From assembly GCA_947259495.1 (NCBI GenBank), contig CAMYLV010000001.1, forward strand, positions 1-64,000: a DNA stretch of 64,000 bases, given 5' to 3'. Each line of letters opens with the position of its first letter. Position 1 is the first letter of the stretch. The translations under genes and the position numbers were made by a program. The notes under the pieces were generated by a model. It saw nothing but the letters and a program-made list of their open reading frames with translations, made no database searches and had not been told where the DNA came from. The stretch is from an uncultured Desulfobacterales bacterium (GTDB lineage: Bacteria > Desulfobacterota > Desulfobacteria > Desulfobacterales > JAHEIW01). This document shows positions 56,196 to 63,842 of the stretch, one piece after another.

Positions 56196-57419
56196 CTATT
56201 TTATTTTCAACTTCGACCTGACGACAATTTCCGAGTGCAATGTGCGGTGAACCGGACAGCGGTCGGCAATTTGCAACAGTCGCTTCTTTTGCTGATCATC
56301 AAGTACACCGGCTAAATCAATTTCACAGTCAAATTGGTCCAGCTGGCCTTCTTTTGTTTGACAGGTATCACAATCGGCGGCATCAATTTTTTTATGGTTT
56401 AATTGAACGGTGACGGCATCCAGCGGCCATTGCTTGCGATCTGAATACATGCGCAGGGTCATGGCTTTGCAGGTTCCCAGGGCAGCCATCAAAAGATCAT
56501 AAGGAGCCGGGCCCAAATCGGTTCCGCCCATCGACTGAGGCTCATCGGCGACCAGACTGTGACCTGCTGCCATAATATCTGTAACATATCCGGACTTCCC
56601 AATTCGAGTGGTCACCTGGTTTTGGGCATCATCACTAGTCGATTGGTCTTTGTGAGAACCATTGACATACTTACCGGCCCAGGCCGCGATTACTGCGCCG
56701 GCATACAGCGAATCCGCTTGATGGGAAAGCAGGTGGTCGGCCTTATCAAGGGAAATAAAGCTTTTGGGATGCCGGGCAGCCTGAAAAATCTTGGCGGCAT
56801 TTTCAATCCCAACGGTTTCATCAATCGGTGAATGTAAAACCAGCAGCGCTTTGTTTAGCTCTTTTAGTGCTGCTTTCATATTGACAAACTGCAAATCGTC
56901 TAAAAACTGTTTTTTAAGCTTAAAGGTTCTACCGGCCAGGTTGACCTCGGCCTCGCCGCGGCTTTGAATGATCGGGGCTGCGCTGCCAAGGGTCTGAGTC
57001 ACATGCCGGGGGTCGGCCGGAGCGGCAATGGTAACTACTGCCGTTGAAGAGGAAATGCGAGCAGCAGCCTGCAGCACAGCCGCGCCTCCGAATGAATGGC
57101 CAATTAATATTTTAGGTGCTTCATAGTTGGATTTTAAGAAATCGGCGGCACCAATCAGATCATCAACGTTTGAAGAAAAATTGGTATCGGCAAAGTCCCC
57201 TTCACTTTCCCCCAGTCCCGTAAAATCAAAGCGCAACACTGCGATGCCTGCGCGGTTGAGTGCCCGACTGATGTGGGCAATGGCCTTGATGTTTTTGGAG
57301 CAGGTAAAGCAATGCGCAAACAGGGCGTAAGCCGCCGGTTTGCCGGCGACGGGCAAATCGAGCCTGGCCGAAAGCACCTGACCGTCGCTGTTTTCGAACT
57401 CGAGTTTTTTAAATTGCAT
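56196..57419 (-). CDS. Fused alpha/beta hydrolase and OsmC-like protein
   Basis: Residues 1-260 form an alpha/beta hydrolase with LFAHCFTCSKNIKA and LIGHSFGGAAV (GxSxG). Residues about 275-407 form an OsmC/Ohr domain with redox-type cysteines in GTCKAMTLRM and RCPVHRTL. The start MQFKKLEF at 57419 has AGGA seven nt upstream. The combination is known in other bacteria and suggests handling of peroxides or esters. It lies 120 bp past the selenoprotein stop. Confidence 0.87.
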   Translation of the reverse strand: MQFKKLEFENSDGQVLSARLDLPVAGKPAAYALFAHCFTCSKNIKAIAHISRALNRAGIAVLRFDFTGLGESEGDFADTNFSSNVDDLIGAADFLKSNYEAPKILIGHSFGGAAVLQAAARISSSTAVVTIAAPADPRHVTQTLGSAAPIIQSRGEAEVNLAGRTFKLKKQFLDDLQFVNMKAALKELNKALLVLHSPIDETVGIENAAKIFQAARHPKSFISLDKADHLLSHQADSLYAGAVIAAWAGKYVNGSHKDQSTSDDAQNQVTTRIGKSGYVTDIMAAGHSLVADEPQSMGGTDLGPAPYDLLMAALGTCKAMTLRMYSDRKQWPLDAVTVQLNHKKIDAADCDTCQTKEGQLDQFDCEIDLAGVLDDQQKKRLLQIADRCPVHRTLHSEIVVRSKLKIK

Positions 57420-57442
57420 AATCGTTCCTTTTTTTAGCTTAG

Positions 57443-57533
57443 CCACAGACGCCCACGGACATCCACAGACGATTTTTTGGATCGAAGATGTCGCTTTCCC
57501 AAATTGTTTGTGTGCGTCTGTGCGGGTCCGTGG
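57443..57533. repeat. Inverted decamer array (CCACAGACGC type)
   Basis: CCACAGACGC, CCACGGACAT and CCACAGACGA are in exact 10-nt register at 57443-57472. After a 41-bp spacer, GCGTCTGTGC and GGGTCCGTGG (57514-57533) give the reverse-complement unit. The array fills the gap between the OsmC fusion gene and the selenoprotein. Confidence 0.75.
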
Positions 57534-57538
57534 CTAAT

Positions 57539-58399
57539 TCATTTTTCTTCATTTGGCTCATAGTCGACAATGGCCGGCGGCTGCAGGCGATGATCTTCGA
57601 GCATTTTAAAGGCGGCTTCGATAACCGCGTGCTGCCTTGCGGGGTCTTCGGGCGCATCCAGTGGATACCCGTGACGGAAAGGGACGACCAGCGCGCGCGG
57701 CGGGCGTACTTTTTCGGCCACTTTGCGCAACAATTGAATCGCCACCGTAGAGATACCCTGACGCTCCAGTTCCGCAGCCACCAGACCCACGGTCTGGTTG
57801 CAAACCGGTCAGACCGGAATTAACATTGCCACATCGACGCCGTCGTCTTTCAGCAGCTTCAGCACCGCGGGGACGGTTTTTTTAATAAGGCGCCCGGGCG
57901 CGGTAATCGATCCCATAAACGACAGGTGCCGGTGGTTCAGCGAGCCGATACGCCCCTTTTTTTTTAATTCCCGCATGCGGCTAATGGGAAAAGCCAGATT
58001 GGGATCTTTACGGATTCCGGAATGGTCGAAAATATCACTGCGATGCGTGTCGATCAAACCGGCGACATCAATATCCGATGGAATTTCACGAAAACTGTAA
58101 TCACCACCCCGAATCGATTTATCAAACGGCGCTTGATCGGCTGTGATGAAACCCGAGCTCGAAATCAGGGTGAGCCGACAATCCTTTAACGGCTTTTGCA
58201 ACGGTACCCATGGAACCGGGTCGATGCGCCGCCAGGGGTAGGTTTTTAGAAACAACCGATACTTAATCGGAAACTCGCTCAGATCGCCCAATTTAAATAA
58301 TCTTCCTTTAGAAGGTTTATCAGCACCTGCGCTACCGAAACCACTTGAGGCCAGGCGCATTTTCAAGATTTGACCTATGTCATTTCGTTCAATATCCAA
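57539..58399 (-). CDS. Selenoprotein of the GrdB/PrdB reductase family
   Basis: I read this as one 286-residue protein with selenocysteine at residue 197, where an in-frame TGA (57811-57809) interrupts the frame. The two flanking parts are each open, in the same frame, and both belong to the glycine/betaine/sarcosine/D-proline reductase selenoprotein B family. Around the site the sequence is MLIPV-U-PVCNQTVGLVA, giving the UxxC redox motif known in this family. The hairpin described next could be its SECIS. The start is a TTG at 58399, uncertain; an ATG at 58360 is possible. No glycine/sarcosine reductase partners are nearby. Confidence 0.8.
57780..57811 (-). promoter_or_regulatory. UGA codon and candidate bacterial SECIS hairpin
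   Basis: After TGA (57811-57809), 10 nt follow before ACCAGACC (57798-57791), a GTG loop (57790-57788) and GGTCTGGT (57787-57780). This is a perfect 8-bp stem. The apical loop begins 19 nt past the UGA with a G at its first position. Bacterial SECIS elements are known to need a small loop with a G at position 1-2, about 16-37 nt past UGA. Confidence 0.72.
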
Positions 58400-58791: not shown

Positions 58792-60066
58792 ATGACTGCA
58801 AAGAATATGAAAATGCTCATCATCTTCTTACTTGCCATTTTTCTAATCCTGCCGGCAAACACGGCCCTGGCGGAGGAAAAGCCCATCGTCATTGGTGCAC
58901 CGCTTTCAACCGCCTTTCTTTATGGATGGGGTGCTGAAAGAGCTCTAATCCTGGCGGTTGAGGAAATCAATGCCGCCGGCGGCGTTAACGTGGGCGGCAA
59001 AAAACGTCCACTCAAGTTGGAGGTCATCGATACGCGGGATCTGGAGCCGGGCGTTCCAGTGAGCGAGGCTCTTTTGGCTGTCGAAAAGCTGATTCTGGAT
59101 ATAAAAGCCGATTTTATCGTGGGCGGACCGGTTCGTTCCGAGGCTGCCCTGGCCGCTATGCCGCTATTAAGCAAATATAAAAAAGTGTCGATCCTGACGA
59201 CCGGCGTATTAACGCCCAAATATCATGCGCTGGTGGCCAAGGAATATGACAAATACAAATATTGTTTCCGGATCCATGGTGAGGCCAAAAACCTGGTGGG
59301 CGAGATGTTTGCAAACTTCACCGAATTGAAGGAAAAGTACGGTTTCAATAACCTTTTTATCATTGCCCAGGATGTCTCCCATGCGCGCGGAGCGGCCAAA
59401 GTCATGAACGCAGTCGCCACTAAAAAGGGGTGGAATGTTACCGGAGTGGAGATTTATCCCACCGGCGCGACCGACTTTTCAATGGGATTGCTCAAAGCTA
59501 AAAACAGCAAAACCGAAATTATCAATATCTGGATGGATATGCCGGAAAGCGCCATTTTGCTTAAACAATGGTATGAAATGAAAATTCCGGCTTTACCGTT
59601 CGGTTCCACCCTGGCGGCCGCCGAGCAGCCCGGTTTCTGGAAGGCCACCGACGGCAAAGGTGAATATACGCTTTGCAATGTGGTCAACGCCGGCAATGCA
59701 CCTTCCGATGCGACGCCCTGGACCATGAAATTTTACAACGCTTACGAAAAACGGTGGAACGTTGCGCCCGAGGGCTTAGGGTGCTCCAGCAGTTATATGG
59801 CCATTTATGTTTTGCGGGATGCCATCGAACGTGCCGGCAGCCTTGAATCGGATAAGGTCGTGGTTGAGCTGGAAAAAACCGATGTTATGGGCGTTTACGG
59901 GCGCTTGAAATTTGATCCCAAAAGCCACCAGGTCATTCCGGCCAAAACGCCTGAAGAAGGAGCGGTGGGCAGCATCCTGCAGTGGCAGGACGGCAAGCGG
60001 GTCGTGGTCTATCCCAAAAGTATCGCCAAGGGCAGTATTCAGCTGCCGCCATGGATGAAAAAATAA
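58792..60066 (+). CDS. livK: Branched-chain amino-acid-type ABC substrate-binding protein
   Basis: The 424-residue protein has a signal peptide (basic start, hydrophobic IIFLLAIFLILP, cleavage near ALAEE) and a Peripla_BP_6 domain with PIVIGAPLSTAFLYGWG and VGGPVRSEAALAAMP. This is the first gene of the liv operon, followed by two permeases and two ATPases. LivK-type receptors in anaerobes bind many organic acids, so leucine should not be assumed. The start has AAAGGAGG ~8 nt upstream. Confidence 0.9.
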   Translation: MTAKNMKMLIIFLLAIFLILPANTALAEEKPIVIGAPLSTAFLYGWGAERALILAVEEINAAGGVNVGGKKRPLKLEVIDTRDLEPGVPVSEALLAVEKLILDIKADFIVGGPVRSEAALAAMPLLSKYKKVSILTTGVLTPKYHALVAKEYDKYKYCFRIHGEAKNLVGEMFANFTELKEKYGFNNLFIIAQDVSHARGAAKVMNAVATKKGWNVTGVEIYPTGATDFSMGLLKAKNSKTEIINIWMDMPESAILLKQWYEMKIPALPFGSTLAAAEQPGFWKATDGKGEYTLCNVVNAGNAPSDATPWTMKFYNAYEKRWNVAPEGLGCSSSYMAIYVLRDAIERAGSLESDKVVVELEKTDVMGVYGRLKFDPKSHQVIPAKTPEEGAVGSILQWQDGKRVVVYPKSIAKGSIQLPPWMKK

Positions 60067-60426
60067 TACCTGAATCTTGCATGAAAATTAATGCGAAGTT
60101 GAGATTAAATTTAAAAATAGCAAGTTAAACAAATTATAGAAGAACAATAAAATACCTGTTCGGTATACAGGATAATAATCATTTTATCGCATTAATTTTC
60201 ATCCTCTGGGCGAGCCCGCCAGAGGCGGACAGGCCGGAGGCTTCCATCTGCTGCGTAATTAAGGGCGAAGCATAGTTCACTATAGCTTCGCCCTGAACTG
60301 CCTGGCATATGAAAGCATCCAACTCGTGTAAAATCCAACTAATAACTTAGACCGATATGCGGGTTGAAGGCGCTGTCTGCGCTGCGCTTTCAACCCGATT
60401 CACGCCTGTTTTTCCCTGTTAGTACT
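60067..60426. other. livK-livH intergenic region with hairpins and repeat boxes
   Basis: A perfect 16-bp inverted repeat (60081-60096 and 60187-60202) encloses 90 bp. A 29-bp box at 60219-60247 matches 39724-39752. A hairpin with GGGCGAAGC/GCTTCGCCC arms lies at 60263-60293, and another with GGGTTGAA/TTTCAACCC-type arms at 60361-60395. No T-run follows either, so these could stabilise livK mRNA rather than end it. Confidence 0.6.
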
Positions 60427-61293
60427 ATGCAAATTTTGATTTACGGAACCATAAACAGTGTCGCCCTGGCGCTATTTGCCCTGGGTTTTGCGATGGTGTA
60501 CGGCGTCAGTCGTTTGCCGAATTTCGCCCACGGCGCCCTGTACGTGCTCAGCGGCTTTATTACCTGGACTTTTGTCAACTCGCTGGGGTTGAATTATTTT
60601 ATCAGCATCCTTCTGGCGATGTTTGTCACCGGAATTATCGGTGCCTTGATTTACCAGTTCGTGCTGATTCGTATCCGGGGTATGGAAATTTCGGAAATTA
60701 TGGCGACTTATGCCATCGGACTGGCCATTTTGGAGGGACTTCGCTGGGGCGGGTTCAGGGGCATGACTTATACCCTGCCGGCTTTTATCGAAGGCAGCAC
60801 GGAGATTGCCGGCATTTCGGTGGATTATCAGCGCTTGTTGGTCGTCGGTATCGGCGCGGCGGTGGTTGCGGTCTTATGGCTGTTTACCCACTATACAAGT
60901 CTCGGTTTGGCCCTGCGCGGAATGGCCCAGGACGAGCGCGCCGCCATGATGTTGGGTATCGATTCGGATCTGATGGCGCTGGCAGCCATGGGGTTTGGCT
61001 CCATGCTGGCCGCCCTGGCCGCCGTCTTGTTGCTTCCCCTGGGTAACATCGTCGTTGAAGCGGGCTATAACGTTCTCATTTTAGCGATTGCGGTTTGCAT
61101 TGTCGGCGGTTTAGGAAGCTGGATGGGTGCTGTGCTGGCCGCTTTCATCATCGGTTTCGCGCAAATTCTAACGGTGGTTTACCTGGGAGCCCATTACCAG
61201 ATGGTGGTAGCGCTGCTGGCTATCATCATAACGCTGATTTTAAGACCGTCCGGGCTGTTTGGACGCCAGAAAGAACTAGAAGAACGCGTATGA
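60427..61293 (+). CDS. livH: Branched-chain amino-acid-type ABC permease, LivH-like
   Basis: The 288-residue permease has about eight hydrophobic segments, with the LivH landmarks YGTINSVALALFALGFAMVYG and GVSRLPNFAHGALY, then MLGIDSDLMALAAMGFGS. The start at 60427 (MQILIYGT) is taken as the family N-terminus; a TTG 63 bp earlier would read through a hairpin. Its TGA overlaps the livM ATG. Confidence 0.9.
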   Translation: MQILIYGTINSVALALFALGFAMVYGVSRLPNFAHGALYVLSGFITWTFVNSLGLNYFISILLAMFVTGIIGALIYQFVLIRIRGMEISEIMATYAIGLAILEGLRWGGFRGMTYTLPAFIEGSTEIAGISVDYQRLLVVGIGAAVVAVLWLFTHYTSLGLALRGMAQDERAAMMLGIDSDLMALAAMGFGSMLAALAAVLLLPLGNIVVEAGYNVLILAIAVCIVGGLGSWMGAVLAAFIIGFAQILTVVYLGAHYQMVVALLAIIITLILRPSGLFGRQKELEERV

Positions 61294-62309
61294 AAGAATC
61301 AAGCGATCAACGCCGCAAGGAAAGGTTGGACCGGGGTATCAAGGTTCGTTCTGAAGGAATCTATGCCTTGATGTCCTGGCGCGAGCTGTCGTACTTGTTT
61401 TTACCCAGAGTCGTGCTGATCGGCGGTCTGTTGATTTTGCCGCTGGCGATGCCCTCCATGTACTGGCAACGGGTGATATCCATTGTCTGCATTTATGCCC
61501 TGCTGGCGTTGAGTTTCGATTTTCTGGCGCATTACGTGGGATTGGTGTCACTGGGCGGCGCATTTTTTATTGGAACGGGCAGCTATATTGCTGCCATTCT
61601 CAACACTTCGTTTGGATTACCACCCATTTTAACCATTCCGATTGCCACCTTGCTGGGCGCCGTTATATGTACCGTGCTTTTGCTTCCCTGTCTCCCGCTG
61701 CGGGGCGTCTATTTTGCGATTGTAACCCTGATGTATCCGCTGCTTTTAGCGCGTGTCATCGAAGCGCTCGATATCCTCGGCGGAACAGATGGGATTTTGG
61801 GCATCGAAAGTTTTGCCAATCGTTGGATGGAGCAATATTTCATTATTTTGATGGTCCTTTTTCTTCTTTTTGGAACCCGCCGACTGGTCAACCAGGATAT
61901 TGGTTTGGTTTTCAGAGCAGTTAAAGACAATGATCAATCGGTCAGGGCGTCGGGAATAAGCGTTACCTATTACAAAACGATAGCGGTATTTATCGCTTCC
62001 GGGATCGGTTGCCTGGCAGGCGCTTATCTGGTTCACCTGTATATGTGGGCCGGTCTGTCAACCCTGGCACTGGATTTTTCCATTCTGCCCATAGCAGCCA
62101 CCGTCATCGGCGGCTCCGGGACGCTGGTGGGACCGGTATTGGGCGCCTTCATTCTGGTGCCCATTTCAGAATTACTGCGGGCGTTCGGGACACTGCGTAT
62201 CGTATTTTATGCCCTGATTCTGCTGGGGTTCATTATCTTTCGCAGTGAAGGTATTATGGTCTACGGCCAACGCAAATACCATCAATTCGAAAAGTGGATC
62301 AAAGTATGA
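61290..62309 (+). CDS. livM: Branched-chain amino-acid-type ABC permease, LivM-like
   Basis: The 339-residue second permease starts at ATG 61290 (ATGA overlap with livH). After about 45 residues of hydrophilic N-terminus come multiple membrane segments with LSFDFLAHYVGLVSLGGAFF and GSYIAAILNTSFGLP, plus RAVKDNDQSVRASGIS as the ATPase-contact loop. This pairs with LivH to make the channel. Confidence 0.9.
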   Translation: MKESSDQRRKERLDRGIKVRSEGIYALMSWRELSYLFLPRVVLIGGLLILPLAMPSMYWQRVISIVCIYALLALSFDFLAHYVGLVSLGGAFFIGTGSYIAAILNTSFGLPPILTIPIATLLGAVICTVLLLPCLPLRGVYFAIVTLMYPLLLARVIEALDILGGTDGILGIESFANRWMEQYFIILMVLFLLFGTRRLVNQDIGLVFRAVKDNDQSVRASGISVTYYKTIAVFIASGIGCLAGAYLVHLYMWAGLSTLALDFSILPIAATVIGGSGTLVGPVLGAFILVPISELLRAFGTLRIVFYALILLGFIIFRSEGIMVYGQRKYHQFEKWIKV

Positions 62310-63100
62310 GCACATCAACAACACCGCTGCTGCAGATCAATCAGGTGACCAAAACCTTTGGGGGCATTTTCGCGTTAAATGAGGTCAGTTTCGATCTGCA
62401 CGAAGGTGAAATCTTAGGCATTATCGGCCCGAATGGGTCCGGCAAGACAACAATGGTGAACTGCATTACCGGCTTTATCGAGCTGAGTGCCGGTGAGGTT
62501 CGGTATCGGGGTAAACAAATCTCCGGCAAGCCGCCGCATAAGATCGCCGATATGGGAATCACGCGCACGTTTCAGATCATGCGTCCGTATTATAGCCTGC
62601 CGGCTTATAAAAATCTGGTGATCCCCCTTTTTTCTCCCAGGGCCAAACGTACCGGAGGCTGGCGGGGCGGCGGCAAACTGGGGGATCGCAATACGGTCAG
62701 TATCGATATTTTAGAAGAATTGGGTTTTGAACGAGAATCGTTTGTGCCTTACAAAAAGGCTTCCAATTTGCCCACCGGTTATCTGAAGCGCCTGGAGCTT
62801 GCCCGCTGTCTGGCGTTGAATCCGAAAATCATCATCTGTGATGAAGTCTTTTCGGGATTGAGCATGAGTGAAATCGCCAGCATGGTGCCGCTGGTGGAAC
62901 GTCTGCAGATGGAGGGCATCACCCTGATTATGATCGAACATCGCCTCAGGGAGTTGTTTCAGGTGGCCAATCGGATAATGGTCTTAAATTTTGGTGAAAA
63001 GCTCATCGAGGGCACCGCCGAAGAAGTCATGGCGGACGAAAGAGTAAAAGAGGCCTATTTCGGATCCGAGGAGGTTGAGGAGGTGATGGCGCATGCTTGA
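62306..63100 (+). CDS. livG: Branched-chain amino-acid-type ABC ATPase, LivG-like
   Basis: The 264-residue ATPase has Walker A GPNGSGKTT, a modified signature region (NLPTGYLKRLELARCLA in place of LSGGQ), and Walker B IIICDEVFSGLS. In the Walker B the usual DEP is DEV. It starts at ATG 62306 overlapping livM (ATGA) and is followed by livF with an 8-bp overlap. Confidence 0.9.
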   Translation: MSTSTTPLLQINQVTKTFGGIFALNEVSFDLHEGEILGIIGPNGSGKTTMVNCITGFIELSAGEVRYRGKQISGKPPHKIADMGITRTFQIMRPYYSLPAYKNLVIPLFSPRAKRTGGWRGGGKLGDRNTVSIDILEELGFERESFVPYKKASNLPTGYLKRLELARCLALNPKIIICDEVFSGLSMSEIASMVPLVERLQMEGITLIMIEHRLRELFQVANRIMVLNFGEKLIEGTAEEVMADERVKEAYFGSEEVEEVMAHA

Positions 63101-63842
63101 GGCAAGGCAGCTGATGGTATTTTATGAAAACATGCTGGCCCTCAATAACGTCAGCATCAGGTGTGAAGAAAATCAAATTGTCGGCGTCTTCGGCGCCAAC
63201 AGCGCCGGCAAGTCCACCCTGATGTATACCCTGTCGGGTATCATGGAAGATATTCGCAAAAAAGAAGAAATGGCCGGTGGTGAACGCATCAGTGTTCTGG
63301 GAGATATTACCTATTTGGGTGAAGGAATCATGGGCATGAAGCCCAGCAAAAGAGCGAAAAAGGGGATTGTGCTCTGCCCGGAAAGGCGCAGAATCTTTAA
63401 AGAGTGTAGCGTCCTGGAAAATCTGCGGATCGGGGGCTATCTGGCGACACCTGCCCAGGCCAAAGACACGCTGGAATATGTTTTTAATGTCTTTCCGGCT
63501 TTGCAAAAGCTTCAGAAAAGGATCGGCGGGTTTTTAAGCGGTGGAGAACAGCAGATGCTGGCCATTGGGCGTGCGCTCATGGCGCAACCGAAACTGTTGT
63601 TGCTCGATGAGCCCCTTTTAGGGCTGAGTCCTTTGATTCAGGCTGTTTTAGTGCGGGCAACCAGAGAAATTCGTGATGAAATGGGCATTTCGATTATTGT
63701 GACCGAGCAATACGCGCGCCCCGTTTTACCGATTGTGGACTATGCCTTTATTTTGGAAAACGGGACTGCGGTTTTAGAAGGAACCCGTGATGAGTTGATG
63801 GATAACCCGGATATCCGGTCGGCTTATTTCGGGATAAAGTGA
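63093..63842 (+). CDS. livF: Branched-chain amino-acid-type ABC ATPase, LivF-like
   Basis: The 249-residue second ATPase has a Walker A variant GANSAGKST, signature FLSGGEQQML and Walker B LLLLDEPLLGLSP. It completes a full LivHMGF set with livK. An ATG at 63093 overlaps the livG end. Confidence 0.92.
   Translation: MLEARQLMVFYENMLALNNVSIRCEENQIVGVFGANSAGKSTLMYTLSGIMEDIRKKEEMAGGERISVLGDITYLGEGIMGMKPSKRAKKGIVLCPERRRIFKECSVLENLRIGGYLATPAQAKDTLEYVFNVFPALQKLQKRIGGFLSGGEQQMLAIGRALMAQPKLLLLDEPLLGLSPLIQAVLVRATREIRDEMGISIIVTEQYARPVLPIVDYAFILENGTAVLEGTRDELMDNPDIRSAYFGIK

Follow-up and report, generated by a model that had tools for sequence, protein, structure and literature searches.

The window (the whole 64,000-nucleotide stretch of DNA that was analyzed) contains on its minus strand a reading frame, 58399-57542, that is open apart from a single TGA at 57811-57809 and ends with the TGA at 57541-57539. 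In a list of open reading frames (ORFs) the frame appears as two pieces, 57809-58399 (196 amino acids, with the C-terminus ...MLIPV) and 57539-57790, which share one frame and are separated by the internal TGA. The first-pass annotation had described this continuity across a TGA following MLIPV without stating the strand, and both the ORF list and the translation agree with it. The features of the locus are collected in Table 1.

Table 1. Features of the locus in window coordinates, with the strand and the basis or details of each assignment.
Feature	Position	Strand	Details
Putative PrdB-like selenoprotein gene	57539..58291	-	250 aa = 160 codons + predicted Sec UGA + 89 codons; stop TGA
Likely start codon TTG	58289..58291	-	AAAGGA about 12 nt upstream
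In-frame TGA, predicted to be read as selenocysteine	57809..57811	-	residue 161 of the 250-aa protein
Predicted UxxC redox motif, Sec-Pro-Val-Cys	57800..57811	-	no variation in either motif column across alignment A1 (16 sequences)
bSECIS-like hairpin, 8 bp stem	57780..57798	-	GUG loop at 57788-57790; fold, covariation, synonymous-recoding control
Gene for an alpha/beta hydrolase-OsmC fusion, probable operon partner	56196..57446	-	Pfam; next gene downstream
Divergent branched-chain-type ABC transporter genes, livKHMGF-like	58792..63842	+	LivK match PF13458; other Liv names by ORF inspection

The gene and its neighbors

The 196 codons first assigned to the part before the TGA are probably too many, and the start has been moved to the TTG at 58291. 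In the column of this codon six orthologues have either ATG (L025, L028, L029) or TTG (L026, L027, L030). All six have a stop within the 37 codons 5' of that column, and the translations of the six relatives 5' of it are mutually dissimilar. The distance from start to TGA is 160 codons in L074, L077 and L113, and it is the same in the window when counted from 58291. Because of these orthologue starts, common lengths and upstream stops, the likely protein is 250 residues long with selenocysteine (Sec) as residue 161, and the stretch of 36 codons ahead of 58291 is probably non-coding.

The hydrolase part of the downstream gene also lies directly downstream and on the same strand in seven of the nine other loci of the clade described below (L031, L074-L079). 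These seven all come from the order to which the window belongs and represent two families of it; the hydrolase neighbor is absent in L113 (genome G443) and L082, both from outside the order. The OsmC half is absent beside the hydrolase in L076, L078 and L079. This arrangement makes it probable that the selenoprotein gene and the alpha/beta hydrolase(-OsmC) gene that follows it are expressed together. The transporter arrangement is kept in L074, L075 and L077, is reduced to the LivK piece in L078 and is not found in L079; for L076 the comparison is limited by a short upstream sequence, and LivM identities were left out since the query frame was unclean. Between the selenoprotein and hydrolase genes, at 57444-57522, there is an inverted repeat of the 'CACAGACG' type with 18-nt arms that are 83% complementary, which we would guess to be a dispersed element.

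The TGA codon, its hairpin and the selenocysteine machinery

Homologs were found in 121 of the 389 genomes of the class. Among the 150 class matches listed (more exist, and rows of both the class and the phylum search were tallied by eye), 145 have one or more TGA codons inside the match, 139 have a single TGA as their only stop, and five have none. At the Sec column itself, TGA is present in all 31 loci first read, with the window and its paralog counted in, and in 15 of another 20 loci, a set into which the five rows without TGA were deliberately taken. The other five have Ser TCA (L054, L056), Cys TGC (L055), Thr ACT (L057) and Cys (L058), the last in a motif that lacks the second Cys. The phylum search covered 395 genomes, 66 of which have a match at E ≤ 1e-30; of its 81 rows, including the window, 80 have a TGA (one of them also a TAA) and one does not. 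In the loci from other genomes of the phylum (L084-L112) the column is TGA in 28 of 29, the exception being Gly GGA in L090. No match was returned in the class search for G270, a genome of the same genus that is 79% complete.

Orthologues at 64-79% identity that share the TGA occur at several taxonomic distances: within the window's own genus, in a different genus of its family, in a different family of its order, and as far away as G443, which belongs to a distant family of the phylum. The protein sequence is conserved 3' of the TGA, including the second Cys of the motif (alignment A1, 16 sequences), whose context in the window is P-U-P-V-C. A pattern-based scan returned a single relative, L082 (L082:5010-5870, in a Verrucomicrobiales MAG), which shares 62% identity; its Sec column reads Cys TGC, and it has no stop. 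By eye, an ORF flanking it resembles a large haem-binding-motif protein of that group, and transfer of the Cys relative between phyla is therefore possible. Aligning both halves with Sec and Cys homologs thus places the in-frame UGA where the first-pass annotation had put it, at a conserved Sec/Cys column of a UxxC motif that is TGA in most sequences and Cys in L082 and L055; forms with Ser, Thr or Gly exist as well.

Just 3' of the UGA the transcript can fold into a short hairpin whose GUG loop lies 18 nt from the UGA. This agrees with the bSECIS rule given in a review (PMC13188914), which places a G in the first two loop positions and the loop 16-37 nt after the UGA. The window fold has a z-score of -1.81, and 9 of 200 shuffled sequences were equally stable. 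The simple rule holds in 28 of 31 UGA windows, some of them via another fold (at least L030 and L047), and fails in three; it also holds in 2316 of 7287 control windows (31.8%). UGA windows fall among the most stable 5% of their own gene in 11 of 31 cases, with a median rank of 0.17; in most homologs, then, the stability of the hairpin is unremarkable. Since the simple rule is weak alone, covariation and synonymous recoding were used.

The covariation set comprised 46 TGA sequences, 44 of them distinct. Pairing is possible in 91.8% of the stem cells as against 74.6% after shuffling, double changes occur in six of the eight pairs, and there are 54 double-changed cells compared with 14.5 in the shuffles. 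The covariation score is 0.485, versus 0.156 for shuffled alignments and at most 0.082 for slid structures. On four measures none of 500 shuffles reached the observed value; for the number of double-changed pairs 14 of 500 did. Under synonymous recoding, with a null that counts the sequences as independent, the 46 sequences have a mean of 7.26 of 8 stem pairs, compared with 5.29 (sd 0.15) expected. The stem was defined from the fold of the window itself, and in 28 independent sequences that played no part in its definition the mean is 7.71, compared with 5.24 (sd 0.21). For the window alone, 4.6% of synonymous recodings have the full 8-pair stem. Rfam contributed no match of the SECIS type in the vicinity of the gene; its three matches, twice to a microRNA family and once to a snoRNA family, are far below the gathering scores.

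Homologs without Sec retain the hairpin to varying degrees. The Cys forms L082, L055 and L058 have 3, 5 and 6 of the 8 pairs, the Ser and Thr forms L056 and L057 have 7 each, and the Ser form L054 has all 8 (mean of the six, 6.0); the Gly form L090 likewise has all 8. Some of these homologs keep 7-8 pairs, and the link between hairpin and Sec is therefore not a clean one. It is possible that L054 and L056 (TCA), L090 (GGA) and L057 (ACT) are recent Sec losses with a relic SECIS, and relic SECIS-like structures in Sec-less relatives have been reported from other families (PMC1794560).

The genome from which the window comes (G000) is 97% complete in 69 contigs. The first-pass annotation had named the presence of selA, selB, selC and selD as a check, and all four were located: a tRNA-Sec with anticodon tca (UCA) at 75 bits, above the cut-off, SelB at 358 bits, SelA at 615 bits, and SelD at 359 bits. 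SelB was found in 323 of the 389 genomes of the class, and co-occurrence of SelB with the gene is uninformative because SelB is nearly everywhere in the class. The SelD gene (L020; G000:C2:224486-225409) has an in-frame TGA of its own in the context RTCG-U-AAK, and SelD is therefore probably a selenoprotein as well. The same genome has a second PrdB-like gene (L002; G000:C6:129850-130482), with TGA at the same column in the context PA-U-PYCC, which is on a different branch of the tree.

Relationship to PrdB and GrdB

The best NCBIfam match of the protein is the D-proline reductase subunit model TIGR04483 (PrdB; E 1.7e-38), at 132.4 bits against a cut-off of 300. It covers residues 63-269 of the frame as first translated and runs across the TGA, residue 197 of that frame, which confirms that the two halves belong to one domain; in the 250-residue protein the match covers residues 27-233, and the profile is 238 positions long. 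The clostridial PrdB is thus similar in length and alignable, and according to the same review also has a UxxC motif (PMC13188914), but the window protein is far below the equivalog cut-off. The selenoprotein B subfamily TIGR01918 scores 39.5 bits against a cut-off of 65.45, with profiles of 431-435 positions compared with a protein of 250. The Pfam family PF07355 (GRDB) is matched at 34.6-35.1 bits, above its gathering cut-off of 22, over the C-terminal part only (profile positions 202-344 of 347). The likeness to GrdB, GrdF and GrdH, the selenoprotein B of glycine, sarcosine and betaine reductase, which is described as having UxxC too (PMC13188914), is thus in the C-terminal domain; the difference is that roughly 200 positions at the start of the GrdB profiles have no counterpart in the window protein. 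All 20 of the PF07355 matches inspected, in the window (57821-58252) and at other loci, end at profile positions 344-347 of 347, immediately ahead of the Sec column, and the Pfam model may therefore have been built from proteins cut at the UGA. Neither the protein nor alignment A1 retrieved any PDB sequence at E ≤ 1.

The partner subunits of the known reductases were sought in G000 and in other genomes. G000 has no GrdE/PrdA-type gene detectable with PF09338, no match to the PrdA model TIGR04480 and no detectable GrdA (PF04723). The one positive genome is that of a relative, G221, which served as a positive control: it was the only one of 16 genomes with PF09338 and the only one of eight with GrdA, it was the only one of eight to match TIGR04480 (weakly and below the cut-off), and it matches the whole GRDB profile at 520 bits. 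Because the scores are below the PrdB and selenoprotein B cut-offs, and because neither GrdE/PrdA nor GrdA was found in G000, the window gene is classed on its predicted sequence as an orphan PrdB-like selenoprotein, neither GrdB nor PrdB proper. The GrdB/PrdB assignment of the first-pass annotation is therefore retained at the level of the domain (PF07355, TIGR04483); membership in either family proper is not, given the scores, the restriction to the C-terminal part of GrdB and the partners not found.

A tree of 47 rows separates the window gene and eight relatives from the rest by a branch that has 100/100 support. The 47 were kept from 52; L059, L060, L066, L067 and L068 were dropped as partial or redundant, L084 of G443, detected afterwards, is outside the tree, and the long branches L058, L062, L069 and L061 are uncertain in position. 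Three PrdB-like selenoproteins (L040, L041, L051) have an additional C-terminal stretch of about 165 amino acids, which in L040 has no Pfam match above the cut-off.

Sec-containing UxxC proteins called PrdB have been catalogued since 2005, and the window gene would be another of this known kind. Reports include 42 genes in a Sargasso Sea set (PMC1088965) and 235 Sec and 110 Cys homologs in the GOS data (PMC2398784), and proline reductase selenoproteins are listed for Anaeromyxobacter dehalogenans and a Geobacter (PMC1794560). As described, the marine metagenome family shares with the window protein the UxxC motif, a relation to pfam07355 and Sec at the first motif position. The likeness to the window clade is by description; the family is named there after D-proline reductase, and the passages describing it do not discuss partner genes. 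A literature search over titles and abstract openings returned no description of the orphan clade or of its hydrolase neighbor.

Alternative readings and interpretation

The UGA at 57811-57809 is most likely Sec, because the TGA column is conserved, the hairpin covaries, the Sec machinery is present and L082 has Cys at this position. Comparative evidence thus supports, with high confidence, the readthrough proposed by the first-pass annotation and a single selenoprotein of 250 residues. A pseudogene or a sequencing error, with the TGA as a nonsense mutation, would explain the broken frame and the two pieces from plain ORF calling, but the 64-79% identical orthologues have the same TGA from the same genus to a distant family of the phylum, the protein is conserved past it and the hairpin covaries. 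Since both the codon and the frame that follows it are conserved, we regard this explanation, the chance of which is practically nil, as refuted, and the first-pass annotation was right to call two genes or a pseudogene the wrong result of a plain gene caller. It is also improbable, if less extremely so, that the UGA is a regulated stop giving mainly a 160-residue product with a role of its own, readthrough with Sec being confined to conditions of ample selenium. UGA decoding competes with the release factor in bacteria, and a few Sec-less homologs retain the hairpin, both of which would suit such a stop; against it, conserved residues and the second Cys of the motif lie past the UGA, and the Cys form L082 has no stop.

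A different alternative concerns function, namely that the protein is a genuine D-proline reductase PrdB or a subunit of a glycine-reductase-type protein B, acting in Stickland-type reduction with a pyruvoyl partner. The rank of TIGR04483 among the NCBIfam matches and the PF07355 score above cut-off point in this direction, but 132 bits is far from the 300 needed, and PF09338, TIGR04480 and GrdA have no match in a genome 97% complete, although the G221 control was positive. We consider this very unlikely.

With the UGA read as Sec in an orphan PrdB-like protein, SelB carrying Sec-tRNA(UCA) would bind the hairpin just past the UGA and the ribosome would insert Sec rather than stop. Judging from the UxxC motif and the family, the selenol of U161 and the thiol of C164 would form a thioredoxin-like selenenyl-sulfide couple, which would reduce a small substrate or a partner. 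This relative of the PrdB/GrdB C-terminal domain would work with no pyruvoyl subunit, unlike D-proline and glycine reductase. A redox role of the protein is likely. That it works in partnership with the hydrolase is a tentative suggestion, and the likely co-expression hints faintly that an organic compound is processed reductively or detoxified. With a little more confidence, still short of calling it probable, we suggest that the clade of the window gene and its eight relatives is a distinct selenoenzyme, a PrdB/GrdB redox domain without pyruvoyl partner that acts with the alpha/beta hydrolase(-OsmC) on an organic substrate.

A gene that plain annotation splits or calls broken is thus very probably a whole selenoprotein. 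The PF09338 pyruvoyl partner family was not found in 15 of the 16 homolog-bearing genomes searched, which suggests that the label 'proline reductase PrdB' on a Sec gene does not necessarily mean a proline reductase.
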